This document shows positions 5,435 through 37,149 of a DNA stretch of 64,000 bases, piece after piece. This stretch comes from Multifurca ochricompacta (taxonomy: Eukaryota > Basidiomycota > Agaricomycetes > Russulales > Russulaceae): contig WTXG01000088.1 in NCBI GenBank assembly GCA_022496185.1, positions 62,001-126,000 of the forward strand, in the 5' to 3' direction. The position numbers were made by a program, and so were the translations under genes. Position 1 is the stretch's first letter. The number at the start of each line of letters is the position of its first letter. The notes under the pieces are model-generated. The model was given only the letters and a program-made list of their open reading frames with translations. It was not told the DNA's origin and searched no databases.

Positions 5435-8400
5435 TTAAGGGAGGCGACGACCCTGGCGCCTAGATAACGAAGAATGGTACCTCGTGAGAAGGTCTGGGGC
5501 GTGACAGTCGTCCTTATCTACCCAAGAGTTTTCACTGGTCGGATAACCAACCCAGCTGACTAGATATTGAAGCTTCTTCTGACGTCCAAAGAACCGGTGA
5601 GCTAAGATGGCGGCAACTTCATATTGTTCTTCCTCGTTGATAAGGTCTGGCGGGGGACGTAAATAGTTGGGGCCATGAGCCGTTGTTTCACGATAAGGAG
5701 ATAACAGGTTAGCATGGAATACATTGTGGATGTGCATGTGATGGGCAAAGACAAACGAAAAGCGAGAGGAGATATTTGCGCGGTAATTGTAAACGGGCCA
5801 TAACGCCGAGGAGCGAGCTTGGTCGAGGGGAAGTATGTTTTTAAATGTTTTCCCTCGAGCCATACTTGCGCGCCGACGACGAAGTCGGGTTGGGCGGTGG
5901 AACCGAAGCGGATGTTCGAAACGCACGCTCCGCGCGAGAGCGCGCAGTTTGTAAGTTCTGTAATCGTTCGTTGACCTGGGGACGTGCGTCTCGTGTATTT
6001 GCGCATTCCAATCGAAAGTGACGCCATGGAGAAGTTCATGTGGGGAGAGTTTTGTTCGATCGTGTGACCAGGTATTATGGACATACTCAGCTAAAGGGAG
6101 ATAATCGGGCCACCGATATTGGTCATCGCCCAGCCAAAGGCGTAAGTATTGCTCTAGCCACAGGTTCATGCGCTCGCTAGCTCCGTCGGTTTGTGGGTGA
6201 AAGGCCGTCGATAGGTTTTGTTGAATTGCAGAACATCAGCGAGCGCGCGGGTAAAATGGGAGGTGAAACGGGGTCTCTGTCGGAAAGAATGCGCCTTGGG
6301 ACTCCAAAGAATGGAAATAGATGTCTATAGTATAATATTGCGATTCCTTCACCAGTGATATCTTTAGAACATGGTATAAATTTTGCTGCTTTCGTACATC
6401 CTTGGTCGACGATCGTTAACACAGCATCGTATCGACCTGACGATGGGAGATCTGTAATGAGGTCCATAGCCACGTACTGGAATGGACCAGCGTGGCGGGT
6501 ACGTCCAAGGGATACGATGGTGTTTTCCCCACCAGTCGAGGTTTATTCTCCTGACATGTGGCGCATCCACGTATGTATTCGCGTACGAACGGCTTTAGAT
6601 CCGGCCCTTCGTACTCTTGTTGGATCCTTCGTGTCGTTTTGTCAACGCCTGGATGTCCCGCTAGTAAGTGATCGTGATACCGCTGAAGAATTTCGCGGCG
6701 TTCGGAGAGCGTCCGGGGAAACGGGAGTTTGTCGTCAGTTACTGTCTTGATAAATAATTCATCGGGGAGGACTGTAACCTCTTGGTTGTCGTCCTCGCCA
6801 TGATCTGCATCGGGTCGACGAGATAACATATCGGCAATGGTGTGTAATTTTCCTGGGACGTGCTCAAGCGAGAAATCAAAGTCTGCAAGCTCCTGGAGCC
6901 AACGAGCTTGTCTACGATTCAATTTTTGTGGTTCTTTAAAGTACTGAAGGTTATTGTGATCAGTACGAATTAGGACTTTATGTCTAGCACCCATGAGATA
7001 TTGTCGCCAGGAGCGGAGTGCGACGATGACTGCAAACAACTCGCGATCATAGATATCCCAGTTCCTTTGTGTCGCATCCAGTGTTTTTGATAGATAAGCG
7101 ATTGGGTGAAGGCGTCCTTCGAATCCTCTTGACTGAGGGTGGCGCCAGTGCGTATCCTGATGCGTCGGTATCTACGATGAAAGGTTTACCGAAGTCGGGT
7201 TGGGCTAAGACTGGCTGAGATGTGACTCGTCGTTTTAGAGTATCGAAAGCGTTTTGTTCTTCTGTCGTCCAGCGCCAAGTTTTCTTTATACTAGTCAGAG
7301 CGTTTAGTGGGGCTGCATTTTACTGAATCCCTGAATGAATCGTCGATAGAACTGGCAGAACCCCAGAAAGGATCGGACTCTTTGACATTTGTGGGCGTTT
7401 TCCAGGTGGCGACGCCTTCTACTTTTACAGGATCCATGTGAACGCGGTCAGCCTCCAGAATGAGACCTAAGTATTCGATGCGTGTTTGTTCAAATGAGCA
7501 TTTCTCCGGTTTAAGATAGAGGTCCAAATTACTAAGTTTATTCAAGATGCGATGTACTTTTGCGTGATGATTGACCAGATCGTGATCAGTATGGATGAGG
7601 ATATCATCCATGTAAACGGTGAACCAAGCCCTTCTGTTAGCGTCGCACTCGTCCAGTTCCTTTCGGAATTCAGCATTCATCATAGTTTGAAAGGTTGCTG
7701 GAGAGTTAGTTAACCCAAAGAACATCACGTTTGGTTCAAAGAGACCGCGGTTCGTTTTGAATGCCGCCTTCCAGCGATCTTCTGGGACGATGCGTATATT
7801 GTTATAGCCCCAGCGTATGTCCATCTTTGTGAATAAGGTACTACCGCGGACGCGGTCTATTAATTCTGGGATCAGCGGAAGAGGTACGTATTACGGATCG
7901 TCCAGTCATTTAGCTTTCGATAATCTTGTACGGGTCGGAGCTTGCCGTCTTTCTTCTTAATGAAAAAGAAGGGGGACGCGTAGGGTGATTTCGACTCCTG
8001 AATATACCCCTTTTGTAAATGTTCCTCCAAAAATTTGTTTAATGCATCTTGCTCTCCTGGTCCGAGAGGGTAGATCTTGCAATCTAGAGTGGCTGGTGCA
8101 TCGGGTTTTAATTCGATTCGATGATCCCAGGGGCGCGGCGCTGGGAAGCGCTGTGCCTCCTCGTTGCTAAAGACTTTGTGATGTTCATGATATTCAGGAG
8201 GTACGACCTGGTCCCACGATCTGTCTATTTTATCTTGCGCCTTGATGGCAAGTTCTTGTGCAATATTGAGACGTCGGATCCTGTCGCTAGGGAGGGCGAA
8301 GTGGATCTGTTGATTTAGTCGTCCGTTCTGCCAGTCGATTTGTGGATTGTTGCAGCAAACCAAGGGTACCCTAGGATCATATCGTCAGTGCCGATGGATG

Positions 8401-14753: not shown

Positions 14754-17141
14754 TCAATATAGTATGCTTTTCCTAGGAGGAGATGCACCGTACGCTACGC
14801 CGTCGTCCCTTTCAAGGAGCCCCGGGGAGATAATAAACGGAGGGCGGATGACCGTGCGCTCGGAGACTTCGCTGTCGCGATCGAAAACGCTGGACGGGTG
14901 GCTCTGCTGAAACTCGGAAACAAAGTCGGCAAATCCATCGATGAAATCTCGGGAGAAGACTTCGTTCGGATGGCTCGCAAAGAACTTGTCAAAGAAGTCA
15001 TTGACGGCACGCGGCCCTGTAAAATTCAGATTAATGACGCCAAATTCAGGGAGGAGAGATAATCTGAACAAATACGCACAAATGGGAGTATTTGGGAGGG
15101 GTTCGTTGGGATTGTCAGACGCGGAACCACTCGTGCCAGATCGCTCAGACACGATGTCGGCACGCCGCCCTGTGAAATTCAAATTAATGACGCCGTTTTC
15201 GAGGAAAAATAGTCTGAAGAAATATACGCACAGATTGGTGTATTCGGGAGGGGCGCGTTTGGATCGGGATTGTCGGACGCAGAACCACTCGTGCCAGATC
15301 GCTCAGACACCAAGCCAGCACGCCGCCCTGTGAAATTCAAATTAATGACGCCGATTTCAAGGAGGAAAAATAGTCTGAAGAAATATACGCACAGATGGGT
15401 GTATTTGGGAGGGGCGCGTTGGGATCGTCAGACGCGGAGCCACTTGTGCCAGATCGCTCAGACACGATGCCGGCACGCCGCCCTGTGAAATTCAAATTAA
15501 TGACGCCGATTTCAAGGAGGAAAAATAGTCTGAATAAATATACGCACAGATGGGTGTATTTGGGAGGGGCGCGTTGGGATCGTCAGACGCGGAGCCACTT
15601 GTGCCAGATCGCTCAGACACGATGCCGGCACGCCGCCCTGTGAAATTCAAATTAATGACGCCGATTTCAGGGAGGAGAAATAGTCTGAATAAATATACGC
15701 ACAGATGGGTGTATTTGGGAGGGGCGCGTTTGGATCGGGGTTGTCAGACGCAGAACCACTCGTGCCGGATCGCTCAGACACGATGCCGGCACGCCGCCCT
15801 GTAAGATTCAGATTAATGACGCCGATTTCAAGGAGGAAAAATAGTCTGAATAAATATACGCACAGATGGGTGTATTCGGGAGGGGCGCGTTTGGATCGGG
15901 ATTGTCAGACGCAGAACCACTCGTGCCAGATCGCTCAGACACGATGTCGGCACGCCGCCCTGTAAAATTCAGATTAATGACGTCGATTTCAAGGAGGAAA
16001 AATAGTCTGAATAAATATACGCACAGATGGGTGTATTCGGGAGGGGCGCGTTTGGATCGGGGTTGTCAGACGCAGAACCACTTGTGCCAGATCGCTCAGA
16101 CACCAAGCCGGCACGCCGCCCTGTAAAATTCAGATTAATGACGCTGATTTCAAGGAGGAAAAATAGTCTGAATAAATATACGCACAGATTGGTGTATTTG
16201 GGAGGGGCGCGTTTGGATCGGGGTTGTCAGACGCTGAACCACTCGTGCCAGATCGCTCAGACACGATGCCGGCACGCCGCCCTGTAAAATTCAAATTAAT
16301 GACGCCGATTTCAAGGAGGAAAAATAGTCTGAAGAAATATACGCACAGATGGGTGTATTTGGGAGGGGCGCGTTGGGATTGGGATCGTCAGACGCAGAAC
16401 CACTCGTGCCAGATCGCTCAGACACGATGCCGGCACGCCGCCCTGTAAAATTCAGATTAATGACGCCGATTTCAAGGAGGAAAAATGGTCTGAAGAAATA
16501 TACGCACAGATGGGTGTATTTGGGAGGGGCGCGTTTGGATCGGGATTGTCAGACGCAGAACCACTCGTGCCAGATCGCTCAGACACGATGCCGGCACGCC
16601 GCCCTGTAAGATTCAAATTAATGACGCCGATTTCAAGGAGGAAAAATAGTCTGAATAAATATACGCACAGATGGGTGTATTTGGGAGGGGCGCGTTGGGA
16701 TCGGGGTTGTCAGACGCAGAACCACTTGTGCCAGATCGCTCAGACACCAAGCCAGCACGCCGCCCTGTAAAATTCAAATTAATGACGCCGATTTCAAGGA
16801 GGAAAAATAGTCTGAAGAAATATACGCACAGATGGGTGTATTCGGGAGGGGCGCGTTGGGATCGGGGTTGTCAGACGCAGAACCACTCGTGCCGGATCGC
16901 TCAGACACGATGCCGGCACGCCGCCCTGTAAGATTCAGATTAATGACGCCGATTTCAAGGAGGAAAAATAGTCTGAATAAATATACGCACAGATAGGTGT
17001 ATTTGGGAGGGGCGCGTTTGGATCGGGATTGTCAGACGCAGAACCACTCGTGCCGGATCGTTCAGACACTAAACTAGATGCGGCTAATGAAGGAGAGGCA
17101 GCCAAGGCCAGAAGAACGTAGGCAGCAACAGAGGAACGCAT
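14754..17141 (-). CDS. Secreted repeat proprotein encoded by a tandem exon-intron array (candidate kexin-processed precursor)
   Basis: The ATG at 17141 opens a signal peptide (MRSSVAAYVLLALAASPSLA) followed by a partial repeat. Twelve internal exons follow on the minus strand: 16830-16925, 16669-16764, 16508-16603, 16347-16442, 16186-16281, 16025-16120, 15864-15959, 15703-15798, 15548-15637, 15393-15482, 15232-15327 and 15080-15169. The last exon is 14754-15016. Each internal exon is 96 or 90 nt, phase 1 on both sides, and encodes a 32 or 30 residue unit starting W-R-R-A-G/D and running through SERSGTSGSASDNP and PLPNTPI. Introns are 62-65 nt, with donor GTGCGT, branch-like CTGAAT/TTAAT and acceptor CAG. 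The spliced CDS is 1548 nt (515 residues). The unique C-terminal part starts W-P-R-A and is rich in Phe, Asp and Ser. The dibasic RR in each unit suggests Kex2 cleavage into about 12 peptides, as in fungal KEP, pheromone and RiPP precursors; this is inference. No tailoring enzyme lies nearby. A cell-wall or effector-like repeat protein is the alternative. Confidence 0.72.
15017..16990 (-). repeat. Tandem array of intron+exon units, period 155-161 bp
   Basis: About 12.5 direct units, each one intron plus one exon of the gene above. Units have 161 bp (96 nt exon + 65 nt intron) or 155 bp (90 + 65), with two slightly shorter introns (62, 63 nt) at the 3' end of the gene. Introns and exons are about equally conserved between units. 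The most diverged units lie at the 3' end, so the array probably grew by unequal exchange near its 5' side. Confidence 0.92.
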
Positions 17142-17370
17142 TGTTGGAGTCAAAAGGAAAGTTGATAGTTTGTCGTAGACGAAAAGTGAGCGAAAAGCGG
17201 TAAGACGAGGTCGTGAAAACGAATAAAAATGGCTAGTAAGCCATAGTGAGCAATGTGACAAGACAGGAAAATAAGAGGGAGGGACAACTCACCAACCAGT
17301 GCCTTGGAAAGGAAAGGAAAAGAAATGCAACTGTGAGCTGAAGCTGGAGTATTACAGACCCTCCTAAGTC

Positions 17371-17382
17371 CCCTTTTATAGA
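17371..17382 (-). promoter_or_regulatory. TATA box of the repeat-proprotein gene
   Basis: The minus strand reads CTATAAAAGGG about 230 bp upstream of the ATG. The leader between them contains a possible 60 nt intron (17233-17292, GTGAGT...CTAG). Confidence 0.5.
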
Positions 17383-18117
17383 GCGCCAGGAAGCCACTGC
17401 AGCAGAGGCACGAGCTCAGCAATTGGTACCACCAAATTACGTTCAGAGAGTAGTGGTCATGCTTCACGTCTTTCTTCGCCGATGTGCATGATACTACCAA
17501 TGGTAATTGATGGCATCATGCTCAATTGAAGCGCCATAAGAATTGACACCCTCCCTGGCCGCCTCACTTGGCCCGACATCTTTGGAAATTTTTTGAGCAG
17601 GGAACGGATCAGGTAGGCTGGACCGGACCAGAGGTGACTGACCGGTGTTGATTATAAACTCGCTCGTTAGATCAGAATCAAGCAGCATGTGAATTAAACG
17701 AAGTGTTGTCAGCGGTGGAATGAGTAGGTCTCCAACATTTTATGACTTTTGACGGTTTCCAAAAAGGGGGGATTTTTCTTTTTCTTTTTCTTTTTTCAAT
17801 CACTAAAATTAAATTAAAAGGAAAAGACAGAAGTGGATGTGGATAACCGGTGCAAGACAAACTTAAGTGGACATTGTAATATATTTACTGACATTCCACT
17901 CATTTATTATGATTACTATAATTAAGATACAATCCTTTATGACTACAGCACAGTACACTCTTTACAGTATTTAAGGACAGTATTTCTGTATCTTACACTT
18001 CAGTTTTGACCTTTCACAACTGAAGTCTTTACTGCGCGTGTAGCTAACATTATTTGTGTAGTTATCTTGCCACCCGTTTAGGTAAAGACTAATTAATATA
18101 CCATTCACAATTAATTC
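17383..18117. other. Intergenic region between the repeat gene and a LINE fragment
   Basis: No gene is recognised. It contains a CCGGACC-rich patch (17615-17650) resembling sequence near 43490, a T/C-rich tract (17770-17800) and AT-rich DNA. 18060-18090 resembles 18745-18775, probably host sequence on both sides of the LINE fragment. Confidence 0.4.
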
Positions 18118-18731
18118 CGTGCCGTGCCTAACTCTGGTCCACCGCGCCGCATACCACCTCGGCACCGATGCGCCTAGCCACCGGGCATGCATTCACTCCC
18201 GATTACTCGGAGCAAGTTTAATCCGACGCTCCCTGCCTCAGACCGCGCCTGCCTGTTCGACAACTCCACCCCAGCTACGTTCATTCATGTCATGCTTCAC
18301 TGTTCCCTGTACGCCGCCCCCCCGCGCGTCTTACGGCATTACCCCCCAAGACTTGGGTGACCTTTCCTGGCTCCATGTCTTCAATCACAAACGCCACGTC
18401 GAATCCCTCCTGGGATTCGTCTAAGACACGCAGGCCTTCTTCAAACCCGTCTCATCGCCGAGGCCGAGAGAACCGGATTAAGTCGGGTCGGTCACTTGGG
18501 TTGACGGGTAAGTGGTCTCTGTTTACTTGTGCTTCCCATACGGCCTTTGGTTTCCTTTGTGCCCTCTCCACTGGCACACTCATAGCCTACACTGCACCAT
18601 GATGTTCATGTCGACTCCACTCTTTGTTTATCCACACAGTAGTTACATTGTCCAGTAGATGTAGCTGTGTGATTTGGTGCCATCCTGAAGCACCTAATAA
18701 AATTGATTCCAAAAAAAACAAAAAAAAAACA
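18118..18731 (+). mobile_element. 5'-truncated LINE copy (C-terminal end of ORF2 plus 3' UTR)
   Basis: The plus strand encodes a degenerate match to the C-terminus of the full-length LINE: a FNHKRHVESLL segment against FNHRGTVGHLL, then a stretch ending in PRPREPD and a stop, against RRPREPD. The 3' UTR ends with the shared tail (GTAGTTACATTG ... AATAAAATTGATTC) and an A-rich stretch. Flanks attcacaattaattc and attcataattgaatt look like a degraded target duplication. Confidence 0.7.
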
Positions 18732-18738
18732 TTCATAA

Positions 18739-19167
18739 TTGAATTATCTTGCTACTCGTTTAGGTAGAGCCTATCTAACCTCAGCTGTGTTTATTACCTT
18801 TGCCACCACCCTCCTTTTATTACCTGCAATGGACCCGGGCCGCCTTCAGGCCTATAAGCGACCTCGGGATTTGATCGGGGAGCTGGGCCTCTGGTACGTG
18901 GTCTGTCTTTGTTTCCCCTGTTGCCCCTGTCGCTCTTTACCATCACTACCTCGACGGGCCGACCCCGGTGAGGTCTGCCTTTCCTTGCCCTTACCTGAGC
19001 CTTACTCTATTTTTTCCCTCAGGTTTTCCATGGGTAGTGTAATCTCTACTTGCACCTCTTTCCTGTCCATCTTACAGTAGTTACTATGTACCTTGTAGTA
19101 GCCGCACGGCTTAGGCTTTGTCCTTGCAAGCACTTAATAAAGTCAAATTCAAAAATAGAAAAAGAAG
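18739..19167 (+). mobile_element. 5'-truncated LINE copy (mostly 3' UTR)
   Basis: It ends in the same family tail (CAGTAGTTACTATGTACC ... GCACTTAATAAAGTCAAATTC followed by A-rich sequence). The 5' limit is uncertain. No ORF of note. Confidence 0.6.
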
Positions 19168-19409
19168 CGCAGGTCCCTGTCCACCTTCCTCCTCTGTGAT
19201 CCGTAATCAAAATTGACCCGCGACCGGGAATGATCGGTGTTCAGTCTTCGCCATCACGTGTCTTGTAGCGTTGGCAATGACCATTGAACATTGGAGATGG
19301 GTATCAGTGAGAGACGCTCCTCTGTAATTCAACACTACGACGGCATGGCACATGAGAGTAAAGTTAAAAAGACAGTACAGTACATAGCATTAATGTCTTT
19401 GCCTGTGAT

Positions 19410-20636
19410 TCAGGCATCAGAAACCAATAGCTTCAACGTTCGCTCGGGCTCATCCCAATGACCCTTAAGTCCATATTGTCCGAATTAGAAGAAAGATTAT
19501 CCAGCGTGATAGCAATTCACTTACACAATGATTCGCACCACTCATGCGCACAATGGAATGCCTCCTTACCTGCTTATCCAACTCCTTCGCCGACTCTATT
19601 TCCGCATTGAATGACCAAATACCCCATGGCATTTGCCATAGAGAGCGGTCGCACCAAAAATACCTGAATTCCACATTGCACCATCCATCCTCAGTACCAT
19701 CGGGAACGAAAACCGCGCTCATGCGAAGTCGCTCGAAGAGCCCGCTTTTAAGACCATTTCGGAGAAGTAACATATCTACTCCATCAGGCAACGAAGGCGG
19801 TACGTAGAAGGCCAACTCAATGTCTTCAGCTGACATTGCAAGAATCGTAGGACGAGGGTCGTCCAATGCAGTACGTGACAGTGTTTCCAATGTCTCACCA
19901 TGCGTGTAATAACTTGTGCCCACAATGGAAACGATTTCATGTCGTCATCCTTGCCCTCGGATAGGTAGTAATACCCATCAGGAGCTGGATATCCCATGGC
20001 GATTGACGGAGGATCTAGAAAGGTCCATTTCCATCTCAGGGCAATGTTTCCATGGTCTCGCACCATAGCCATAGTCACCGAGACGCACCATATGCAATGA
20101 CTCGTCGGATGTACCTGCTTAGTTCAATATCATCTGCCTCGAAACTGGGAGCATAAGCGAGGAACGCCGTCATAAATGCAGCGCCAAGTGACCAGCCTGC
20201 CAGAATGATGCTATTCGTAGGTAGATCCTCTGACTTCACGATCTCGCAAAGGAAGTCGTAAAGCTCTTTAGTACGTGCTTTCATGAAGAGGTCAGCATTC
20301 TCTGATGTCTCTGGGGTGTCATGTGTTGCGGAAGCAATGATAGCGTGGTCTTGGTCACTGAATGGATCAGAACCTGGATATCCACGTCTGTTGATGAGAA
20401 TGATACGTGCGCCAACGACTTTTGCAAGTGGTAAAAAGTGCTTGAAAAACTCTGGGATGTAAAGAGACTTGAACCAAGGAGGTTGAAGAGAGTGAAAAGA
20501 GAGAAAATAAGCTACCTGCGGTCACTGAGAGACCATGTAACATAAGGAGTGTAGGATAATATTTTTGGTTGGTGAACGGAGGGCCAGTGTCTAGGAAGGC
20601 AAATACGCCAAGCTTTTTCCAGTTGTTGTTTGACAT
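19410..20636 (-). pseudogene. Alpha/beta-hydrolase-fold protein, one single-base frameshift
   Basis: Four exons on the minus strand: 20516-20636, 20089-20451, 19525-20014 and 19410-19463, with introns of 64, 74 and 61 nt. The product, about 342 residues, has the oxyanion-loop LMLHG, an INRRGYPGSDPFS segment, the nucleophile elbow AGWSLGAAF (G-x-S-x-G) and a C-terminal histidine at GHWDEPERTL, which needs the last intron removed. The class is a serine hydrolase (esterase/lipase or similar); substrate unknown. The frame breaks once, near 19925-19930, between FPLW and TSYYTHGETL. Total exon length is exactly one base short of a multiple of three, so a one-base deletion or sequencing error explains it; otherwise the gene looks intact. 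The full-length LINE inserted 122 bp upstream of its ATG. Confidence 0.75.
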
Positions 20637-20749
20637 TAAGGGAAAAGGGATAGTTGGAGAGGATTGAACGAAGTGAACACAGACAAGTGACACGGGTTGA
20701 TACTGGAGATGCCGGCCCGAACCAACAATTCTTGTACGTGTTTAATCAT

Positions 20750-20757
20750 TTATAAGA
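20750..20757 (-). promoter_or_regulatory. Candidate TATA box of the hydrolase gene, inside the LINE target duplication
   Basis: The minus strand reads TTATAAAT about 115 bp upstream of the ATG. It lies within the 16 bp duplicated target (20743-20758), so the gene kept the box while the sequence further upstream was moved to 36415 and beyond. Confidence 0.4.
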
Positions 20758-20906
20758 TCATCCTTCTTTGTCTTGAACCACCACCATCAAGCTTGAGCCT
20801 TGCTCGCTTTGGGGTGTTTTAGTCTAGCATAGAAGTTGTGAATCCAAGTCTTTGTCGTTCCTCTCATTGCACACCCTCACAGTGCACCTCGCCCTACCTG
20901 CCCTCA

Positions 20907-23900
20907 ATGTCTGGGGGTTCACAAAACCCCATCCTGGTGTCGTCGGCTTCGTCCAACGCATCGATTGAACTCATCAACCCTGCGGTTCTTGAACCGTCCC
21001 CACCGCCAGCATACGAACCTCCCCCTCGTCAAGGGGGCTCCCACCTTATCCAAGGGGTTCCCAATCCCCTAGACCTCCCACCCCACTTAGTGAGTGTGGA
21101 TGTTGCTGACTCCTACGCTCGCCCAATGCTCTATGATCCCATGGATGCCCCTGCTGCTGAACAGGGCACCGTGGACGACTGTTACGAACCCCGTCTTTGC
21201 CCGTATTCTTTTTCTTGCCCAACGACGATCCCTCTCTACTGCCCACACTTCACTATCAGATCATGTCTCCATCGTGGGATCCGTCACATGCTCTTCGTCC
21301 ATCCCCGTGACCTTCTTGTTTGTTCATGTTTACCTACTGTTATCTTCGTTATCACTTATCTTCTTATCATACAACCAGACACTTACTTAATACCCTATCA
21401 GAAGCTAGGCTTTACGCCCTCCGCTTTCGTATATTTGGGCCCACTTGACTCCGTTCCCTTATCTCGTAGACGCCCACTGCATTACGTATATAAGTCCGCT
21501 GTAGCTACCCTGTAGACCTCAGACTCGACTTATTGAATACATCGGTGTTTGTCTTCCGGACTTCCCCTTGAAACCTTTGACTCGATCGTCTCAGTGCTTT
21601 TGGCACTTTCCGCTCAACATTGTCACTAGGGAACGGCCCCTTTGACTTTGACTCATCCATTTGAAACTCCAAGAGGTCTTATTGATCTCTTATCTGAATA
21701 ACACGTACGAAGCTGTCGCACAAGTCATGCAGAACGTCTCACACTGGACGTAACAACGACAACACTCGCCAGGTTGCTCGACACACCCTCAGGGCCACCA
21801 GACACCGCGATGTGGCTCAGTTCTCTGAGTCACACATGGGCTACGGCCTCTATTACTACGCTGCCGACTTCCGCATGGATGTCGACGCTACCTTCACCTT
21901 CCAAGACCAAATGGCCAGTCGGGCTGCCATGGTCGCTGCCTCTCTACTCGACGCTGGCATTCATCGTCAGGGAGAACAGGAAGTTTACGCCATCGGACTT
22001 GAGACCCCCTTGTGGGGTCGGCTTGTCTGTGGCATACTCGCTGCTTTAACACGGGGCGCCCTGCGCTCCCCCAATTTACGTTCCCTCCTCGATTATTCAG
22101 AAGGGGACTTTACTGATTCTGTCTCCCTAGCCTCTGGGATTCCGATCCCAGAGACGCCCCTAGCCCATATTCAGGCAATGCTCTCCCAGCTCAATGGAAT
22201 TTTTCATGCCGACCGGGAAAACCCCTCCCTCTACGCCAAGGCGATTGAACTCGAGGCTCGACGACACGCCCTCGATGCCATACGCCAACAGGTCCTGGAC
22301 CGTCTCCAAGAGGAAGGCGCGCATGCCCGCGTACGCGAGGACTGCCTTGCCATTCTCAAACAGAACATGATGGCTGAACTCAAAGCTGATCGTGTACGTA
22401 TATACGATGGGGCCCGTGCTGACCTCATGACCCAGGCCCGTGCCGAGGTCTCTCAGGAAGTTGCCGCTTTCCGCGTTCAATACGCTCACGAACGTCATGA
22501 ACATGCCATGGCCGAGATTAATGCCATGCACATCACTCCACCGCTCCCCATGGGAGACACTGACCACACTCCGCGTCGCCGAACGAAGGGCCCTCACCAC
22601 CCCTCCTCCCCGACCACGCCCACCCAGCCGCGCCACGCCTTACCCATCCCACGCCCCGTCGCGCTCCAACCCAACTTGACGCCGCCGATTGACTTCCGTC
22701 GTCTCCACGTCTCAATCACAAATCGAAGAACCCATGGAGCTCTTCACCGAGGCCAACCCGACCCCTCCTATCCACACCCAACCTCCAGTGTTCGACCGTG
22801 CCGTCCGTGGACTTGGCGCCTCTGACTACGCTGATGATGAGATGGCTGCGTCTGATACGTTGCCTGCCCCCTCCTTGCCTCCGCTCGCTGACCTTCCAGC
22901 TCCCGCCCCTGCTCCGACCGACCCACTCAGCCACATCGAATCCGTGCTTGCACGGATCGTCGACCGTCTGGACAGGCTGGAACAGGGACGGGCACCCCCT
23001 CCACCAGCACGCGCACAGGCTCCCGCTCGCCATCCTACGGCCGCTGCGACTGTCCCTACCGCTGGCCCTCCTCCTGCTCCTTCGGCGACTGGCCCTATGG
23101 GCCCTGTCCTGGGCGCCACCCCCACCGACGCTTTCCAAGTTGTCACCCTGGCCACCATGGCCCAACAACTCAAGGCTGTTTCCTTCGCCCAGGCGGCTAC
23201 CCGCGCCCAGGGCCGCACCATTGCTGGCCAGCCCAACCTGCGTGCGCGGGCCCCGGCCACTACTTCGACCACTCGCGCCCCGCCAGTGGCACACACGACA
23301 GACATCACGGTCCTCCTTCCTCCGCTCCCTGCTGGCACTACGGATCAAGGCATGGCCCCTGTGCCAGAACTCGTACTCATTGCCTGACAGGCACTACAGC
23401 GCATCAATGCTTCTGCCCCCCACCTTTTGGGGGGCCAATGGTCAGTGGGTCTTGGCAATAGCCAAGGAAATTTTATTTTCTCTTTTGCTGGCGACTTGCC
23501 TTTCCAGTCGCTCTTATTCTACGAACCCGCCCTGGTGAAATCCTTCCCAGGCGGCGCACTCGTCCCCACCCGGGGCTGGAACTGGCTCCAGCTCCGTGAT
23601 GTTTACGTCTCAGCTGGGGACGGTGTCGTCTTCTCCAATGCGGTCCTTTGGAGCAAACTCCGCCGCAACGGCCCCTTCACTAGGGCCCTTTTCCCATCAC
23701 CCCCTCGTTGGCAGGTCGACCCGTCCCGCATTCAATCTCCCCGCTCGACAGTCTCCTTCGCTATGCACGGCCTCTCTCCCACCGACATCGCCCAACTTCT
23801 ATGCACCCCAATCTATATGTTCGGCCGCGCAGTCAAACTCGTTTCCTGCGGGGACTCGCCTGCCCTCGTCCAATGCGGCCGATGCCACCTTCTCAGTCAT

Positions 23901-24761
23901 CGCACAGGTCAGTGTAACCGAGCTAACAACAAACTGATTTGCTGGCAGCCCGCTTTGAAGCCCAAGTGCTACAAGTGTGGCGGCCCCCATACTTTCACAG
24001 ACCACGCCGCGCAGTGCCAAGGTGCACACGCCGTCGCGGGTGTTTGCAACTGCAAATACAAATGCCTCCTCTGTGGTAAGTTCGGCCACCACGCCCGCTC
24101 TACCACCTGCCCCAAGCGCAGTCCCTTCGCCCCACCGCCCCTTGCGGACACCATGGAGACCTCAGCCCCCGCGCGTTCCCCCGCGGCTCTGGTGGGTTTG
24201 TCCCCGGGCCCTGCTCCCTCCACCGCTGCACCCGCTCCAGGCCCCTCGACAGCCCAACACGCGGCCATGCAAACTGGCAGTTTCACGATCGTCGAACAAC
24301 GCCCGCGCACACACGTGCCTGGCGCCCATATGACCACGAGTAAAGTTTGTAGGCCACCGGTGCAGGTGGCCCCCAGTACGTCCTCTGCTCCCTCCTCCAC
24401 CCCCTCTGCTGTGCCCTCGGTCACCGCCCCCACTCCCACCCCCCCAGTTTTCCCTGCTGGGGCCCCCGGCTCACGTGCGGCTCAACGCGCCCTGATGCTG
24501 GATGCCCACGGCATCATGCTGGGAGAGTTGGGTCTTCAACACCTCCGCCTCGTTGTCGGCAGCCGTGAACGCCATGTCCGCAACGTTGATCTATATTTCC
24601 TCGACCGGCTCCTCGGTGGTGACGGCAATGGCTGCCAAATTATTATGTGCATCCCCAACGTCCCCGATGGCAACAAGCTCACCGTCCACATCGAACAGTT
24701 CATGGAAGACTCCATGGGCCACCCCGCTCCCTCTGCGAGCCAAGACCCATTCCATGTCTGA
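20907..24761 (+). pseudogene. LINE ORF1, gag-like nucleic-acid-binding protein
   Basis: The frame from ATG 20907 runs into the solo LTR at 21180 and continues in the same frame at 21761 once the insert and one acgac copy are removed. It then shows frame changes near 22715 and 23420 and an in-frame TGA at 23385-23387. The N-terminus is Pro/Ser-rich, the middle (22150-22500) is a charged coiled-coil-like region, and the linker is Pro/Ala-rich. The C-terminus has three knuckles: CGRCHLLSHRTGQC, CYKCGGPHTFTDHAAQC and CLLCGKFGHHARSTTC. The stop TGA (24759-24761) overlaps the ORF2 start. The product would coat LINE RNA. Confidence 0.85.
21180..21755 (+). repeat. Solo LTR, family 1, inside LINE ORF1
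   Basis: A 576 bp LTR (TGTTACGAACC ... GGACGTAACA) related to those of copies A and B. The 5 bp duplication acgac is exact at 21175-21179 and 21756-21760. Removing LTR plus one duplication restores the ORF1 frame. It arose by recombination between two LTRs of an earlier full insertion. Confidence 0.95.
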
Positions 24762-27700
24762 TACGTCAATACTTACGGTCAACATGCAACACAGCAACCA
24801 CAACATCCATGCTGTGCTAAACACTAACCGCTCCGACCACATACTACTGATCCAGGAACCCTGGTTTGGTAACATTGGGGTCGCCCGTTCTGATGTTTCT
24901 GCTGACGGCGTTGACACCCTTGGCAGCCCTGTCCACCCGGCGTGGCAGTTATTCTACCCTGCGGTCCCTGCTGGCGGCCGCACGAAGACTCTCATCTACA
25001 TTTGACGTTTCCAACCCACAGACCCGTCCGTTCTCTATACGGCGATGTTCACTACCCGCCACGATCTTGTGGCCCACCCATGCATCCTCATGGGTGACCT
25101 CCGAGTTGATGCACTCACTCTGCGCATCCTTTCCTTCTACAACGATGTACGTGATCCCTCTGCCCTCACCACTCTTTTAGGGCTGGACCTGGACCTGCAC
25201 ATCCCCCACCTCTTGGCTGGAGATTTCAATCTCCACCACCCTGAGTGGTCGCCTCTGGACTGGCAGGTGTCAGCGCATGCCGGTGTCTTCCTGGACTGGG
25301 TAGCTGACCAGGACCTCACGCTGGCCTCCCCCCCAGGTGTCCCCACCAGGCGGGGCTCTGAACCCTCTCGATCTAGTGTCTTAGACTTGGTCTGGACTTC
25401 ACCCGCTCTCACAGCGTCTGCCGCACTCAGCCCACCTGAGTTAGACTGGACAGCTGGCATCACCTCGGACCATGCTGGCTTCTGCATGTCCTGGCGCCAC
25501 TCGCTTCTGGCGGCCTCACCCTCTGCCGAGTGCGTCACTTACCTCACTGGAATCTCTGATGACACTCTAAAGAGCTTCTTGGATCATCTCCGCTCCGATC
25601 TTCCCCCACGCCGCCCCCTGCTCATGCCTCTTGACGTCGAGACTCAGGCTGATGACATTCTGGACATGCTGATGGCTGCTGCAGACCGCTGGCTCGCTGT
25701 CAAATCCACGCCTCATGCCAAACGATCGCACTGGTGGAAGCCTGCCTGCACCCAGGCTGTCCATGCTCTCCGCTCTGCACGGGATGACCCTGATGCCAAA
25801 CGTTTGGCCCAGGCTGCCCTTCGTAAAGAAATTCGACAGGCCAAACGAACCTGGGCCGACGATACCATCGCGAACTCCAGTGTCTGGGAGGTTGTGAAAT
25901 GGCGCCACGGCCGTCGTGTCACGCTAGTCCCCGCCATCCGCCAACCATCCGGCCTGCTTATATGGTCCCAGCTGGAGATCGAGTCGATCTTCGTCGAGCA
26001 ATTCTTTGGCTCCACATCCTCTGCTGTCCCTGATTCCTTCCTGGACGACCCTCTGCCCATGGCACCTCGCCCCTTCCTCCCCTTCACGGCTGATGAGATC
26101 TCGGCTCTCCTCACTGCCACATCCTCTTCCTCTGCCCCAGGGTTTTCCCGTGTTTCCTGGCGCATCCTCAAGTGGGCCTGGCCTGTTCTCTCCGCCCGCG
26201 TTGTCGATCTGTTCAACGCCTCTCTCTCCCTCTCTTACGTTCCCTCCCGCTGGAAGCGCGCGCTCACTGTAGTCCTTCCCAAGCTGGCACAACCAGACTA
26301 TTCCCTTGCTAAGGCTCACCGGCCCATCTCACTCCTCGAGACCTTGGGCAAGCTCCTCGACAAAGCCGTCGCTCGGCGCCTGACCACTGACATTGACAGA
26401 TACCATACCCTGTCTTCGGCTCAGTTCGGTGCCCGCTCTAACTCCTGCTGTCTGGACTCGGCCTTGTCTCTGGTCCACGATGTTACCACGACTTGGTCTT
26501 GGGGCCTCGTCTGCGGCATCGTGCTCTTCGATGTGTCAGGCTTCTTTGACCACGTTCACCCCTCCCACTGTGCCTCAGTCCTCCAGCTCCTGGGTCACGA
26601 CCCCGCTTTAGCCGAATGGGTTCGATCCTTTCTTACTGGGCATACGGCCTCCCTCTCCTTCAACAACGAGGTTGGCCCTGCCCACCCGGTTCTTGTGGGC
26701 ACCCCCAGGGATCCCCCCTTTCTCCGGTCTTGGCGACCCTGTACACCGCCCCGCTTCTCACGCTTGCCTCCTCGTGGCCTGGCTGCCATCTGTCTATGTA
26801 CGTAGATGATGGACTCCTCTTTGCCTGGGGCACCTCGTGGGATGAGGTCACCGCTTCCCTCCGCACCCAATTTAGTCAGGTGCTTGACTGGCTTTCCCGC
26901 GCTGGCATGTCCATTGATATGGCCAAGATGGAATGCCTCTTCTTTTCCTGCACACGCAAGCGCAACTTACCCCCTGCGGGCATTTATTTGCCCCTGCCGT
27001 CGCACAACACGTACTCTTATGTCGTGGCAGGGGCCCAGGTGCGTTACTTGGGTTTTTTCTTCACCAAGTCGCTCTCCTGGCGCCCCCACACACAGATCAT
27101 GTGCCATCGTGCCCAGGCCTCGCTATGGGCCCTCCGCACCCTTGGCAATTCCGAACGGGGCTTATCCATGGCCAATTGGAGACTTCTGCTTAACGCGGTC
27201 TGTCTCCCAGTTCTCACTTATGGCTCACAACTTTGGGTCCACAGCAAACAGGCCTCGGGCCTCATCAAGCTCTTACAGGACGTTGCCAACATGATGGTCC
27301 ACACCATCTCTGGCTCTTTCCACATGGCTCCTCGCCAGCCCCTACATGAGCTCACCCACTTGCTCCCAATGCGCCATTTCGTGCACAAACTGGCCGATAC
27401 GACGTCCCTTCGCTACACCTCACTCCCGGCCCACTCCCAACCGGCCCTCCGCCTCCGCTTGACAGCGGACGCCTCCCTCTGGGCCCCCTTGTCCTGACAC
27501 CGCGCCCGCCCACCCCACCCAACCCTGCTGCGCCTACTGGCTGCCCACACCCCACCCCTCTCCTGCCCGGTGGACCCCTTGGGCCTGACCCCCTGGGAGA
27601 TCCTGGACTGGGGAGAACGGGTTTCTTACGTGGGCCCATGCCCCCCAGCTGACAGGAAGGCCGCCGTGACAGCGCTCTTACACGAGCCTCGCGCCTCTGT

Positions 27701-28712
27701 CATGTTGATCCACGTCAGCTCAATCCTAACACGTTTGGGCCGGTCTGACAACAAATCCGTGGGTGCCGCGGCGGCGACCCTTATGGACTCCCGAGGCGAA
27801 TGGACGATGGAGTGGTGTCGAGGCACCAACGTGTCTCGTCACGAGGTGGCCCTCTTCGGATTAGCTCGCACCATGTCGTGGTTGTGCGGCTTCCTTCGTG
27901 GGTCCCCTCTACCTGACCGGGTTGTACTGACGGCCACCTCCTCTGCCCCCCTCCTCTCCCTTCACTCTCGAGACCCTCGACGGTTCACCGGAGATTTCAT
28001 TCTCTTCCAACGCTCCCTTACAGACTTTCTCTCTTCCTTCCCATCCACAAACCTGGAGCTCATGTGGGTCCCTGGTGGTAAGTACTATCGCGCCATCACC
28101 GTCTCCACTAAAGCTGCAGAACGCACGGCCTCCCACACCCCTCTGGGCTTCCTGGAGGAGAAACCTTCCCCGCTCCAATGGCAGGCCCTCTCACGCCTTC
28201 GCACTTATGACAACTGGCGCGAAGAGTGGCTCTGGGATCGCGCCGCGGCTGCGCCCACAAACGACAACCCCTCAGGCTCTGACTTCAAGGCCTATGTGAT
28301 CTCCATCTCCGGCCCGCCGTGCGGATCGAACCACCCACTCTGGACTGCCGCCACCTGCCGTCGCAAGGACCCCTTCGACCAGCACACCACCTCCACTGCC
28401 ATGCGCCTGGCCACAGGGCATGCCTTCATCTCAGAATACGCTGAACGTTTTCACGCCCGCCGGCCAGCTTCTGAACACACCTGCCAGTGCGACAATTCCA
28501 CTCCATCCAGCTTTACCCACATACTGCTGGAATGCCCCTTGTACGCCCAATCTTGCGCGACATGGCAGCTCACCCCGTTCAATCTGGAGGGCCTCACCCC
28601 CACCGACTATTTTAATCACCGAGGGACGGTAGGGCATCTCCTGGAGTTCCTCCAGGAGACTGGTGCCTTCTGGCGGCCGATTTTCTCGCGGCGCCCCCGT
28701 GAGCCTGATTAG
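24754..28712 (+). pseudogene. LINE ORF2: AP-type endonuclease, reverse transcriptase, RNase H-like domain
   Basis: The ATG at 24754 overlaps the ORF1 stop. Endonuclease motifs include LIQEPW, AGDFNLHHPEW and SDHAGF. Reverse transcriptase motifs include HRPISLLETLGKLLDK, AQFGARS, LFDVSGFFDHV, a GxPQGSPLSPVL block and YVDDGLLF. The C-terminal part (27690-28130) aligns in pattern with RNase H but seems to lack most catalytic acids; it is followed by a C-Q-C ... H-x4-C knuckle and ends RRPREPD. Breaks: TGA at 25003-25005, a one-base deletion in a C run near 26705, and TGA at 27495-27497. It is inactive as given. Confidence 0.88.
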
Positions 28713-28876
28713 GGTTGAGGAGTGTAGGACGAGGACCTAGTGAGTTTTTTCTTTCTTTGTCTCTTGAATGGTCTCTGGTTTCGGACGGCCTCTCCACTTA
28801 GAATTTATTTACGGTTTTCCTTCTGGGTTTCCACACATGACTTTGTCGCTCCATCCTTTGTTTGTAGTAGTAGTAG

Positions 28877-29463
28877 TGTTACGAACAGGGCCCAGTAGCC
28901 CTATTTTCTTTACCCTTCCCAACAGAGATCCCACTCGCCCACCGACTTTACACTTCCTCATCACATCTCCTTCGTGGGACCCCTCATGTGCACTGCTTCC
29001 ATCCCCGTGACTGTTGTTTGGACTTGTATATACACTGTTTACCTATGCTTGCCCTTCTTATCTCGTTATCCTCTTATCTTACAATCGGACACTTACTTAG
29101 TTCCCTATCAGAAGCCAGGCTTTACGCCCTCCGCTTTTGGATATTTGGACCCACTTGACTCCGTGTTCTTATCTCATAGACGCCCACTGAATTACGTATA
29201 TAAGTCCGCTGTAACTACCTTGTAGACCTCAGACTCGACTTATTGAATACATCGGTGCTTGTCTTCTGGACTTCCCTTTGAAAGCTCTGACTCGACCTTC
29301 TCAAGTACTTCTGGTACTTTCTGTTCAACATTGTCTTAGAGTGCAGCCTCTTTGACTCTGACTCTTTCATAACGAACTCCAAAGGACCTTATTGGTCTTT
29401 TACCTGATAACGAACGAACGCTGTCACACAAGTCGTGTGGAACGTCCCGCACCGGACGTAACA
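28877..29463 (+). repeat. 5' LTR of chromovirus copy B
   Basis: This 587 bp LTR has TG...CA ends. A TATATAAG box (about 29197) is followed about 33 nt later by AGACTCGACTT (29231-29241), the inferred RNA start. Confidence 0.95.
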
Positions 29464-29465
29464 TC

Positions 29466-29476
29466 AAGTCGAGTCT
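29466..29476 (+). promoter_or_regulatory. Self-priming primer-binding site, family 1
   Basis: AAGTCGAGTCT begins two bases after the 5' LTR and is the exact 11 nt complement of AGACTCGACTT at 29231-29241. The spacing and logic match the family-2 element and Tf1-type self-priming. Confidence 0.65.
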
Positions 29477-29485
29477 CCTCCCAAC

Positions 29486-30860
29486 GTGGCTTCATCCAGC
29501 TGCAGTCAAACCCTGTTCAAAGAAGAGCTCATCAAACGCAGAGACGAGAATAATCTTTCACAACAGACACTTGGCTCTGCTGTCTGGAAAGACTTTGAAA
29601 CCGAGTTTGGATACTATGTCTATCACGATGGAAGATACCAACCGGTAGAGTACGACGACGAAAAGAGAGTTTGGTATTGTATCCGATACTCGGATAGCAG
29701 ACATTCGTGGGTTACTACCGCTCCCGCTCCACCAGAATTCGGTCTTGGACCGTGGAGAGAGAACCCGCCCGCGATCATCACCGACTCAGAACCAGAAGAA
29801 TACGTCGAAGAGAATAGTGAAGACGCACCAGTATTAGCATCGTCTACACCCCTGGTTGCACTGGCAGTTGTCACGATCAGAGCCCCTGCTTTGACAACCC
29901 CCCAGATATCCATACAATCCGCAGATACCATTACCCCATTTCACCAGAACATGTCCACCATCGCTGCCCAACTCCCCGATCCCGTCCCTCCTCCTCCCCG
30001 CCCCGGTTGTCCCGAACATCCCTCCTCCATCAGGACGCCTGTCGGGAATCTTGCCCCAGACCTTCACAGGAGATCGCTCCCAGAGCAAGAAGTTCATGTT
30101 GGAGTTACCACGTTTAAAAACTTCAACCATGATGTGGCCCAAATCGTCAACCCCTTCCAGCGTGCCAACCTCTTCCTCTCCCTCATCAGGGGTGACGCCG
30201 TCGACGATTGGACCATGGAACAGCTCGAGTGGTTGAACGAGCAGGTAGAGAGTGGCCGCCGTACTACCAGTGAAGGCCTCTGGGAGACCATAGCTCAGAG
30301 ATTCAAAGACGCCTTCACTGATGGACAGGCAAAACAGAAAGCAGCCAGGGAATTAAAGTCCCTGAAAATGGAAAAGGGGAACTTGACGCCTATGTGGCAA
30401 ATTCCGAAGCCTGGCAAACCGAGCAGGCTATGATACAGATGAAGAAGCAACCTTGGATCTCTTCTCCCAAGGACTGCCAACCCACTTGTCAAAAACATCA
30501 TTCAGTTCCATCACCTCATGACTGGGACGAATGGGTTGATGCTGCTCGACGACAGCAGCAGGATATCTCGACTTCCAAACACGATTTGGAGTCGACACCA
30601 AGAAAGGAAAAACTCGAGAACAATGGAAGGCCGCGTTTGGAGTCAAACCAGCGCACACTACTCAGAGGGATCCCAATGCTATGGATACCTCAGCCGACAG
30701 AGTCAGGGCAAGAGTCACGCTCACAGAAGACGAACGGCAACACTGATGAAGGAAGGAAGGTGTTTTCGCTGTAAGGGACAGGGGCATATGTCCCGAGACT
30801 GTCCAAAGAAGGGAGTACGGGTTGCGCAGCAAACGCGGCGCCAGCAGCCCCGTCAACAAT
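29486..30860 (+). pseudogene. Gag of chromovirus copy B, frameshifted
   Basis: An open frame to 30433 begins with a non-ATG codon in the listed frame, so the start is uncertain. It has an acidic N-terminal third, a Pro-rich linker and a capsid-like region with IRGDAVDDWTMEQLEWL and AARELKSLKMEKG. Frame breaks near 30390 and 30700 separate it from the zinc knuckle CFRCKGQGHMSRDC (about 30755-30800). Confidence 0.8.
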
Positions 30861-30999
30861 AACCCACCGGCTGTAGACAAGCGGACTAAGGAAGAGAAGG
30901 CCCAGGACATATGGGCGAATATGATGAAAGAGAGCGAGGAAGTGCGAGCCATCCTTGTGGAGAAGGCATTCGCAAAGAAGGATTTTTGATAAGCTCTAC

Positions 31000-33900
31000 C
31001 CCATTGGCCTGGGCAAGAGCACTCCATGTTACCTCTGTGTACACTAGTCGATTCAAATCATTAAAAATACCAGTTCATTTCGAGACTACACAGAGGACGG
31101 CCGATGAGACATCTTAGTGGACTCTGGAGCTACGGATAACTTTATCAGTCCAAGGATGATCAAAACTTTGGGACTAGGGAAGCAGGCTCTTCCCCAAGAG
31201 AAAAATATCTGGAATATTGACAGAACTGCCAACCGTGCTGGAAAGATCACCACTACACCGACCTAAATGTCCAAGTCGGGGAAATAACAAAAGTCATTCG
31301 CTTTCTGATCACCGACTTAGGGGACGAAGACCTCATTTTGGGATATCCATGGCTTGCTGCATTCGAACCCAGGATCAATTGGGCCGATGCAACAATGGAT
31401 AAGGATTCATACCCCACCATCATTACGTCAGAGGCTACGATTATGCATCAGACATGGGGCGACAAAAGATGCAGATGCCAACAAGGAGACCTAGGTCGCT
31501 GTTATGCCACAGGCTTCAGAATTAGCCCAGAAGCGATACAGGGGCAGGCAGAGAAAACTTATGATGACATAGTACCGCGCACCTACCACCGCATTGGAAG
31601 GTGTTCTCAGAAGAAGAGTCACAGCGATTCCCACCCTCTCGACCCTGGGATCACGCCATAGACCTGCTCCCCGACACGCCGGCAGCAATCGACTGCAAAA
31701 TCTATCCACTATCCCAGTCGAGCAGGTGGCGTTGACGGAATTCCTCGAAGAACATTTGGCGAAAGGATACATTCGCCCATCCAAGTCACAGTATGCCTCC
31801 CCTTCTTCTTCATCAAGAAAAAGGACGGCAAGCTGCGACCAGTCCAGGATTATCGACAATTAACGCTCACACAGTGAAGAATGCCTACCCCCTGCCGCTC
31901 ATCTCCAACTCATAGACACCATGAGGGATAAGTCCCTCTTCTCAAAAATGGACGTGGGTGGGGGTACAACAATGTCAGGATCAAGGAAGGTGATCAGTGC
32001 AAAGCGGCGTTCAAACAAATCAAGGATTGTTTGAACCGAATGTCATGTTCTTTGGCCTTACAAACTCACCAGCGACGTTCCAAGCCATGATGAACCACAT
32101 CTTCCGCGATCTCATTCTTACTGGAGAAGTAGTGGTCTACATGGACGACATATTGGTGGCCACCCCAGACAACCTAGATCACCACCGAGACCGTGTACAT
32201 CAGGTGTTAGATATACTCCAAGAACACGACCTGTATCTCAAACCCGCAAAATGCTCTTTCGAGCAGCGCAGTGTTGAGTACCTAGGAGTCATCTTAGAAG
32301 GAGGACAAGTGCGCATGGATCCCGTTAAAGTACAGGGGATCCGGGAGTGGCCAGTGCCGACCTGTGTCAAGGATGTCTGATCGTTCATTGGATTCTGTAA
32401 CTTCTACCGACGCTTTGTCAAAGGATTCTCAGGCATCGCACGACCATTGAACGATCTCTTGAAAAAGGACGTGCCATGGCATTGGAGTTCAGCACAACAA
32501 CAGGCGTTTGAACAGATCAGGGACCTAGTCGGCTCCGAGCCTGTACTTATCCAACCAGATCTGCGTCATCCCTTCGAACTGGAAGTAGATGCCTCACACT
32601 TTGCGAATGGGGCAGTATTATACCAAAGAGATACCGCACAAGTGCTTCACCCAGTGGCATACTATTCCGAGACCTTCTCCCCAGCAGAGAGGAATTATGA
32701 CATCTGGGACAGAGAGCTCTTAGCCATAGTCAAGGCATTACGACACTGGCGACCTTACCTGGCCGGGACCCCACATAAGACCATCATCCACACCGACCAT
32801 TCCAACCTATTGTATTGGAAGGAACCCCACAAAATCAGTCGACGTGTGGCGCGAGAGGTTCTGGAGTTAGAAGAGTATAACTTCACCCTGAAACACATTG
32901 CTGGAAGCCAGAATGCTAGAGCGGATGCACTGTCACGCAGACCAGATATGCACACAGGCGAGGATGACAATAATGACATCACTGTCCTCCCAGAAGAAGT
33001 GTTTGCGAAGGCTGCTGTAGTCAGCCTCCATGATATGGACCTATGGGCACAGATTCCCAAAATATGAACCAAGAACTATGCCATTCATGGGCCGATGCAC
33101 ACAATTTGAAAAAGGTCAACGGCCTTTGGTGGAAAGACGGCGATCGACTGGTTGTCACCGGTGGCGACAACATTAAGAGGGGGGTGATCCATTTTCACCA
33201 CGACCTTCCCTCTGCAGGACACCCCGGTATCCACAACACCTACGCCTGGCCAAAAGAGACTATTGGTGGCCCAACATGAAAAAAGACGTCGAAAGTTATG
33301 TGCAAGGATGTGCAGCGTGTCAGGCAACAAGGTCAACACACACCCGAGAGTCCCGCCAATACACCCCATCGCTCCCATTACGTCGACCCCCTTTCAGACT
33401 ATTGCCATGGATTTTATCGTCAAATTACCCAATCACAGGGCTTTGACACCATCCTTACAATCACCGACCACGACTGCTCCAAAGCGGCCCTGTTCATTCC
33501 CTGTCACGAGACTATCACAGCTGAAGAAGTGGCAAAGCTGTACTGGATCATGTATACCGCCATTATGGACTCCCCAAGAAGATCATATCCACCGTGACAC
33601 CAGGTTACGTCAACGTTTGCTAGAGCCTTATGCAAAACGTTAGACATCGCGCAGAACATCTCCACAGCCTACCATCCACAGACGGACGGGCAGTCCGACG
33701 GACAAATCAATGGCTTGAACAATACCTCGGTTCTGGTGCAACAGCAGACAAGACGACTGGGCAAATGGCTATCAACTGCGGAGTTTGCTCACAACTCATG
33801 GCCCAATGGCACCACGAAGACCACCCCCTTCTCCCTTATCATGGGCTGGACCCCGCGCACCACGTGGGTAGATAAGCCCACTCAAGTCCCTTCCGTAACC

Positions 33901-34491
33901 CAACGGATAAGCCAATGGGAAGAGCTGCGACAATCGGCCAATCAGAATCTGGTAAAGGCACAACAGCTTCTGGCAGCACAGCCAAGCACTTTCACACCTT
34001 ATCAGACCAATGACTGGGTATGGCTCGAGGGCAGGAACATTCACACGTCACACCCCACGGCCAAGCTAGCGCCCCGACGTCACGGACCCTTCCAGATCAC
34101 AAGGAAGCTGTCAGACGTATCCTATGAACTGCAACTGCCGCCGAAATGGAAGATCCACCCGGTCTTCCATGCTAAGCTTCTAACCCCTTACAAGGAGACC
34201 TCCATTCATGGAGAAAACTTCCCGAGACCCCCGCCTGATCTTATCGATGGCGAAGAAGAATGGGAAGTGGAGCGCATTCTAGACTCCAAGCGACAAGGCC
34301 GAGGGCGCAAACTGTACTACCTAATCAAGTGGAAGGGATTCCCAGACTCTGACAGTTCGTGGGAACCAGCCGGAGATATCTCTGCTCCGATTCTTATCTC
34401 AGAGTTCCACTTACGACACCCCAAGCGCCCAAGAACAATTAAAAGGAGGACAGACTCCCGACATCTTTTCCCCAGAACAACGCTTCACTAG
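31000..34491 (+). pseudogene. Pol of chromovirus copy B (PR-RT-RH-IN-chromodomain), frameshifted
   Basis: Protease motif LVDSGATDNFI near 31115-31150. Reverse transcriptase 31640-32390 with FFGLTNSPATFQAMM and YMDDI (about 32138). RNase H 32447-33050 with EVDASHFANGAV and HTDHSNL. Integrase 33060-34200 with the core motif MDFIVKL. Chromodomain about 34250-34420 (YLIKWKGFPDSDSSWEP). The RT motif before YMDD is broken by a missing base near 31952 and another near 32020; further breaks lie in the integrase (33400-33720). Confidence 0.88.
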
Positions 34492-34513
34492 CAACGTCCT
34501 AACCACAACCAAT

Positions 34514-35704: not shown

Positions 35705-35735
35705 CTGGGTCAGCTCGAACCAGAAAGGAGGGTGA

Positions 35736-36322: not shown

Positions 36323-36414
36323 AGTAGTCACATTGTATCCGGATGTGGCCACGCAATTGGGTGCCATCCCGCAAGCGCGTTATAAAATTGATTCAAAAAA
36401 AAAAAAAAAAAAAA

Positions 36415-36935: not shown

Positions 36936-36950
36936 TTAATGTGCCTCAAA

Positions 36951-37143: not shown

Positions 37144-37149
37144 GGGTGT

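Follow-up and report, generated by a model that had tools for sequence, protein, structure and literature searches.

In the mining of fungal KEX2-processed repeat proteins (KEPs) by Le Marquer et al. 2019 (PMC6339444), three features were required: internal repeats, KEX2 sites that separate them, and a signal peptide. Many KEPs have no homolog at all, and a further survey counts 2560 such stand-alone KEPs (PMC7329392). KEP peptides of Agaricomycetes have been found by mass spectrometry, several of them ending in W and some starting with SG (SGTGEASAADW, SGVAADW). In the same work, some KEP products in yeast apparently arose by cuts after a single Arg, no phenotype was seen when six KEP genes of Coprinopsis were knocked out, and the authors suggest a role in biotic interactions (PMC9769878). 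The exon-intron layout of KEPs is not described in the main texts of PMC9769878, PMC6339444, and PMC7329392, where the word "intron" occurs once, never, and never, respectively; the sole mention concerns intron-less KEP sequences cloned from cDNA.

Several other precursors are of comparable build. The Ustilago maydis proteins Rep1, Rsp1, and Hum3 are secreted; their repeats, 11-17 in number and 18-55 residues long, come with Kex2 sites that are either shown or putative (PMC4617103). Neither "intron" nor "exon" occurs in that review. MiSSP8 of the ectomycorrhizal basidiomycete Laccaria bicolor is a repetitive precursor with Kex2 sites, the knockdown of which impairs mycorrhization (PMC7329392). 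In the plant symbiont Rhizophagus, the SP7-like effectors form a family of secreted repeat proteins that is partly defined by a conserved intron; this intron precedes the first repeat, the effectors are nuclear, and repeats placed one per exon are not described in the portion of PMC11333574 at hand. Several exons that each code for one mature peptide are known from the precursor gene of the honeybee antimicrobial peptide apidaecin (PMC3415428).

The gene described here, gene B, belongs to the basidiomycete Multifurca ochricompacta (Russulales, Russulaceae; milkcap family). Russulaceae are an ectomycorrhizal family. Gene B is a repeat-array gene on the minus strand, at 17141-14754 of the analysed stretch of 64,000 nt, here called the window (G000:C593:62001-126000), and the assembly containing it comprises 53.8 Mb in 605 contigs. 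Long matching stretches of about 95-98% identity extend across gene B and its flanks between contigs C593 and C110, and C110 is taken as the second haplotype of C593. Its allele of gene B has 10 exons and 9 introns and codes for 379 amino acids, with eight repeat exons versus twelve in the window allele. An assembly artefact is an unlikely source of the array, since this layout recurs, with a different number of copies, in the second haplotype.

In the window allele, the spliced model comprises 14 exons and 13 GT-AG introns of 62-65 nt. Exon 1 (151 nt; 16991-17141) encodes a leader that resembles a signal peptide by hydropathy (approximately residues 1-20/21) and the first core, and ends in phase 1. 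It is followed by intron 1 (65 nt, GTGCGT..TTACAG; 16926-16990) and by repeat exon 1 at 16830-16925, which encodes WRRAGIVSERSGTSGSASDNPDPNAPLPNTPI, with the W shared across the junction. Repeat exons 2-8 are located at 16669-16764, 16508-16603, 16347-16442, 16186-16281, 16025-16120, 15864-15959, and 15703-15798 and have, like repeat exon 1, a length of 96 nt. Repeat exon 9 (15548-15637) is 6 nt shorter with the frame kept, and repeat exon 10 (15393-15482; 90 nt) is identical to it; repeat exon 11 (15232-15327) measures 96 nt again, and repeat exon 12 (15080-15169) 90 nt, which gives nine repeat exons of 96 nt and three of 90 nt. Introns 2-12, situated between these exons, comprise ten of 65 nt and then one of 62 nt, so that eleven introns of the gene have 65 nt. 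The last intron (63 nt; 15017-15079) has its homolog in the single intron carried by two-exon paralogs. The last exon (14754-15016) completes the W and continues with PR and then AVNDFFDKFFASHPNEVF...LLERDDGVA; final exons of a related kind are found in paralogs A and C. All of these features lie on the minus strand. The positions given by the initial annotation, its twelve exons of 90 or 96 nt, and its unique terminal exon were recovered throughout, and its assertion that the frame is kept when the 13 junctions are spliced at GTGCGT...CAG agrees with the single frame of 515 codons that ends at 14754.

The array was delimited by Tandem Repeats Finder to 15005-17069 (period 161, 13.0 copies, 93% matches, score 3409); two other arrays with a score above 100 are present in the window, with scores of 134 and 283. 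Among the 22 introns of both B alleles, 21 start with GTGCGT and one with GTGTGT, while 18 end with TTACAG and four with TCACAG. Retention of an intron would introduce an in-frame stop in 20 of the 22 cases, the exceptions being, in either allele, the final intron of 63 nt. The lengths of all 20 internal exons of both alleles are multiples of three, and any one of them could therefore be skipped without loss of the frame. By eye, a promoter-like box, TATAAAAGGG, is seen at 17371-17380 on the minus strand, some 230 nt before the ATG; a similar box, also identified by eye, precedes paralogs A and C as well as the C110 allele.

The deposited NCBI protein for gene B (P0001, 312 amino acids) includes exon 1, five whole repeat exons with the boundaries of the spliced model, and a hybrid of two others, from the middle of which it is read in another frame to its end. 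As far as known, it is an automatic model and not proof of splicing. That only five whole repeat exons and one hybrid were kept out of twelve, followed by another frame, suggests that surveys scanning predicted proteins may overlook or misread precursors with one exon per core.

The encoded protein contains 13 cores that are nearly identical to one another, and exon 1 supplies the first of them. Each repeat unit consists of RR followed by A[GD][IL]VSER-SGTSGSASD...PNTPI, and its W is split over the exon junction. There are 12 RR sites at a spacing of 30-32 residues in the window allele and eight in the C110 allele, and the RR-coding start is identical in 20/20 internal exons of both alleles. 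All 11 fragments between the 12 RR sites share one motif, where KEP mining asks for at least three near-identical repeats between dibasic sites; the cores span approximately residues 23-429 of 515 in one region, the corresponding threshold being at least 15% of the protein. Residues 1-21 contain a basic residue at position 2, reach a hydropathy of 2.66 over nine residues, and include a small-residue S-L-A motif. Where the last repeat gives way to the C-terminal segment, the site reads PR and is not dibasic. Tyr is found at positions 8, 504, and 515 alone, and the repeats contain neither Tyr nor Cys. In all fragments, RR is followed by AG or AD, the XA/XP of the STE13 type being absent. An alpha-pheromone-like KEP with a STE13 signature is not supported on this ground.

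Gene B is quite probably a KEP gene for linear peptides ending in W that was born by tandem amplification from a single-core precursor. Its precursor would enter the secretory pathway, where kexin would cut after each RR and trimming of the KEX1 type would take off both Arg residues. Secretion would then yield roughly twelve linear peptides, 28-30 residues long and mostly AG[I/L]VSERSGTSGSASDNPDPNAPLPNTPIW; if a monobasic ER|SG site were also used, peptides of 21-23 residues starting with SGTSG would be formed. For the predicted unmodified peptides, monoisotopic masses of 3006.43, 2294.05, 2795.34, and 2082.95 Da were calculated. The linear nature of the products is inferred from the 12 RR sites, the KEP mining features, the agaricomycete peptides detected by mass spectrometry, and the one kexin P-domain match in the genome. 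Purely by analogy, a likely role would be in the interaction with other organisms, such as a host tree. The proposal of a KEP made at the outset stood with respect to leader, repeats, and the RR between them, as far as the sequence features listed in the accessible part of PMC6339444 could be tested, whereas the dikaritin and the alpha-pheromone reading found no support.

In terms of known systems, gene B resembles the Agaricomycete KEPs in its leader and in near-identical cores that are separated by RR and end in W (PMC9769878, with the surveys PMC6339444 and PMC7329392, in their available parts); it differs from them in that each core has its own exon and its own intron. With 28-30 residues, its cores are also longer than the agaricomycete peptides named in the available part of PMC9769878. 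The repeats of Rep1 and Hum3 are amphipathic (PMC4617103), while those of gene B look hydrophilic by eye and are closer to Rsp1. To the SP7-like effectors gene B can be likened as the gene of a putatively secreted repeat protein, and to MiSSP8 by the description of the latter as a Kex2-site precursor. The layout of one exon per peptide is found in the 12 repeat exons of gene B, as a gene model and not as cDNA, and the likeness to the apidaecin gene described in PMC3415428 is one of layout and not of homology. For fungal KEPs, and within the searches made, the suggestion that an intron in every repeat is uncommon and perhaps undescribed holds; it does not hold for precursors at large, in view of the bee apidaecin gene. 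No fungal exon-per-peptide precursor was found in a literature search, based in part on incomplete texts, that left out most subscription journals and the Epichloe gigA paper. The KEP class is known; its arrangement with one exon per peptide is, provisionally, undescribed in fungi.

The reading frame of the array was compared with its two rivals over the 20 internal exons of both alleles. A stop interrupts none of these exons in the frame that reads WRR, all 20 in the third frame, and one in the frame of the deposited model, which is nearly open too; the openness of the WRR frame goes beyond chance. The 16 exons of 96 nt have 14 variable columns (the four 90-nt exons were left out of this count), which are distributed over codon positions 1/2/3 of the WRR frame as 3/1/10 and over those of the deposited-model frame as 1/10/3. 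The third-position excess of 10/14 columns corresponds to a binomial P of 0.004, a test that treats variants as independent, which repeats are not. Synonymous variants amount to 11/18 against 27% expected (P 0.0025), again with an assumption of independence that is untrue of repeats. That variation in the 96-nt exons favours the third position speaks for constraint on the repeat protein. The mean pairwise difference over the 20 units is 6.0% in introns and 6.4% in exons; this approximately equal similarity argues for the copying of whole units.

In the last exon, no purifying signal is seen between B and C (C578), with four synonymous and nine non-synonymous codons and differences at codon positions 1/2/3 of 6/4/3. 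Compared with the C26 allele of C, the numbers are eight non-synonymous and three synonymous codons. The last exon of B is open in the deposited-model frame as well, and confidence in the KEP reading is slightly reduced by this and by the missing purifying signal.

Two paralogs with two exons each are present in the genome. The starts of paralog A and gene B are separated by 35.7 kb on C593 and by 6.6 kb on C110, and paralog C is found on C578 and C26. Common to A, B, and C are the leader, a core start of the type [KE]R-SG[ST]SG, an intron of 63 nt (GTGCGT..TTACAG) that precedes the last exon, and C-terminal tails that are related and start with NDFF. Where B has ER, A and C carry KR (AP[SG]FV[ST]KR-SGSSG), a KR that gene B has lost; the KR of A and C at this position points to it as the start of the core. 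NCBI protein P0002 (paralog C, 145 amino acids) equals the spliced model of the C26 allele letter for letter; as far as known, it too is an automatic model, which agrees on the ancestral intron and is not proof of splicing. The alleles of A differ by frame-shifting indels, several of them in C runs, as do the alleles of C by indels of this kind. As it stands, the C593 allele of A stops after 77 amino acids, and the C110 allele extends to 213 amino acids with another end. The last exon of A contains 84-nt tandem repeats of its own (G000:C110:749-1120 and C593:42720-43109).

The junctions of these genes allow a route for the birth of the array to be proposed. In the frame leading to the tail, exon 2 of A (C593) starts with R-R-A-V; in gene B, the W of the last exon is followed by P-R-A-V, and every repeat exon has R-R-A-[GD]. 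By eye, the repeat unit opens like exon 2, with R-R-A, and then resembles exon 1 behind the leader (G-L-V-S-E-R), the join being GCC or GCT (Ala). The array would have arisen from a two-exon single-core precursor like A and C, in which a duplication or unequal exchange would have joined the Ala codon after the exon-1 leader to the Ala after (P/R)R of exon 2, as far as this can be read by eye. The resulting unit, composed of mature start, core, intron, and KEX2 site, would then have been amplified in tandem. Its exon would be symmetric (phase 1-1), and gain, loss, or skipping of a unit would for this reason keep the frame. With regard to a possible origin of the intron from an introner, the array as a DNA query matched nothing but loci A and B in the two haplotypes, which is weak evidence on this point since very common words were skipped.

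Between the two B alleles, only the last repeat exon is identical. Within the alleles, repeat exons 9 and 10 are identical in the window allele and repeat exons 1 and 2 in the C110 allele, which is the pattern expected from turnover within the array. After ...DDGVA, the stop codon TAG is present in paralog C (both alleles) and in the C110 allele of B; the window allele has TAC instead and reads on for 12 residues (YGASPPRKSILY; window 14757-14792). With two-exon single-core relatives, a multi-core gene, and two unequal alleles in one genome, birth and turnover of such an array can be studied directly, and with them the way in which multi-core precursors, be they KEPs, fungal RiPPs, or pheromones, come by their repeats. 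It is conceivable, if rather unlikely, that the layout of one exon per core acts as a device by which unit skipping in splicing and unequal crossing-over set the number of peptide copies per mRNA and per nucleus; the symmetric exons and near-identical splice sites would make copy number tunable in this way. If so, the dikaryon would carry two different doses, and gene B would be, within the literature searched, the first fungal precursor found with a core number set by splicing.

Instead of being processed into peptides, the product might be an uncut repetitive secreted protein, with the hydrophilic repeats as a flexible spacer or wall-associated stalk and the C-terminal segment as the working part, as in repeat effectors of the kind of Rsp3, which is not predicted to be cut. 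The C-terminal exon common to all three paralogs would fit such a protein, as would the repeat-number length polymorphism also known from Rsp3 (PMC5923269, in part) and the LxKR site of Epichloe SspN, which was not cut under the conditions used (PMC6374014, available part). Yet RR occurs at every repeat boundary, without exception in the internal exons, and the C-terminal segment, for which B and C give no purifying signal, has no Pfam match; a Pfam search with the spliced copies gave one match in one of the four members, at E 0.14, and none above chance, and a PDB sequence search, with a best E of 0.16, likewise returned nothing above chance. Neither is a confident fold predicted: AlphaFold (two-row alignment) returned two helices for the protein of paralog C, with a mean pLDDT of 50.3. 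An uncut protein is rated as unlikely.

Even less probable is a decaying gene, the array of which would be kept alike by unequal recombination in a transposon-rich stretch and would have no product. Retroelement-like ORFs do flank gene B, the TAG stop found in the other copies is missing from the window allele, frame-shifting indels separate the alleles of A and of C, and the last exon is devoid of a purifying signal. Nor was a relative found outside the genome: two protein searches, with the C110 allele (379 amino acids) and with a four-row alignment of the spliced copies, gave only two Multifurca ochricompacta proteins at E <= 10, with 7993 or 7994 top word-sharing candidates scored, so that distant relatives may be missed. 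Against decay stand the B alleles, whose exons (14 in one and 10 in the other) are free of stops and frame errors, the internal exons, which vary by 6 nt only while the introns measure 62, 63, and 65 nt, and the third-position excess in the repeat exons. A dikaritin-type RiPP precursor with cores cyclised by UstYa-type enzymes is highly improbable, since the cores contain no Tyr and none of the eight UstYa (DUF3328) matches, which lie on six contigs of the genome, is on C593, C110, C26, or C578, the contigs of A, B, and C, and a search of the six frames of window 17201-21603 gave no Pfam match either.

The surroundings of gene B were scanned for Pfam families in two segments, 17201-21603 and 36401-46003. 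At E 0.01, no family was found in the six frames of 17201-21603. Over the cut-offs in 36401-46003 were RNase T2, an RNase T2-like C-terminal domain, and a chalcone isomerase-like family; one weak proline-rich match was below its cut-off. The Ribonuclease T2 and the RNase T2-like C-terminal domain matches are located at approximately 40150-41330 on the plus strand. The block of about 15.6 kb at 20758-36415 contains LINE-like and LTR-retroelement-like ORFs, named by eye. No counterpart of it is present on C110 between the matching flanks, and for that reason it looks like a transposon block private to the C593 haplotype. Retrotransposon polymerase-like ORF pieces, also named by eye, lie at 5435-8363 on the minus strand. 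The segment upstream of gene B at 18802-20683 has a second copy beside paralog A, at about 92%, and parts of it are also found on C557 and C163, at 83-84%. Two closely similar ORF pieces on the plus strand at 51585-52046 and 55640-56221, which look ArfGAP-like, represent a local duplication, and a 75-nt tandem repeat in two copies with 96% matches is present at 57595-57746.
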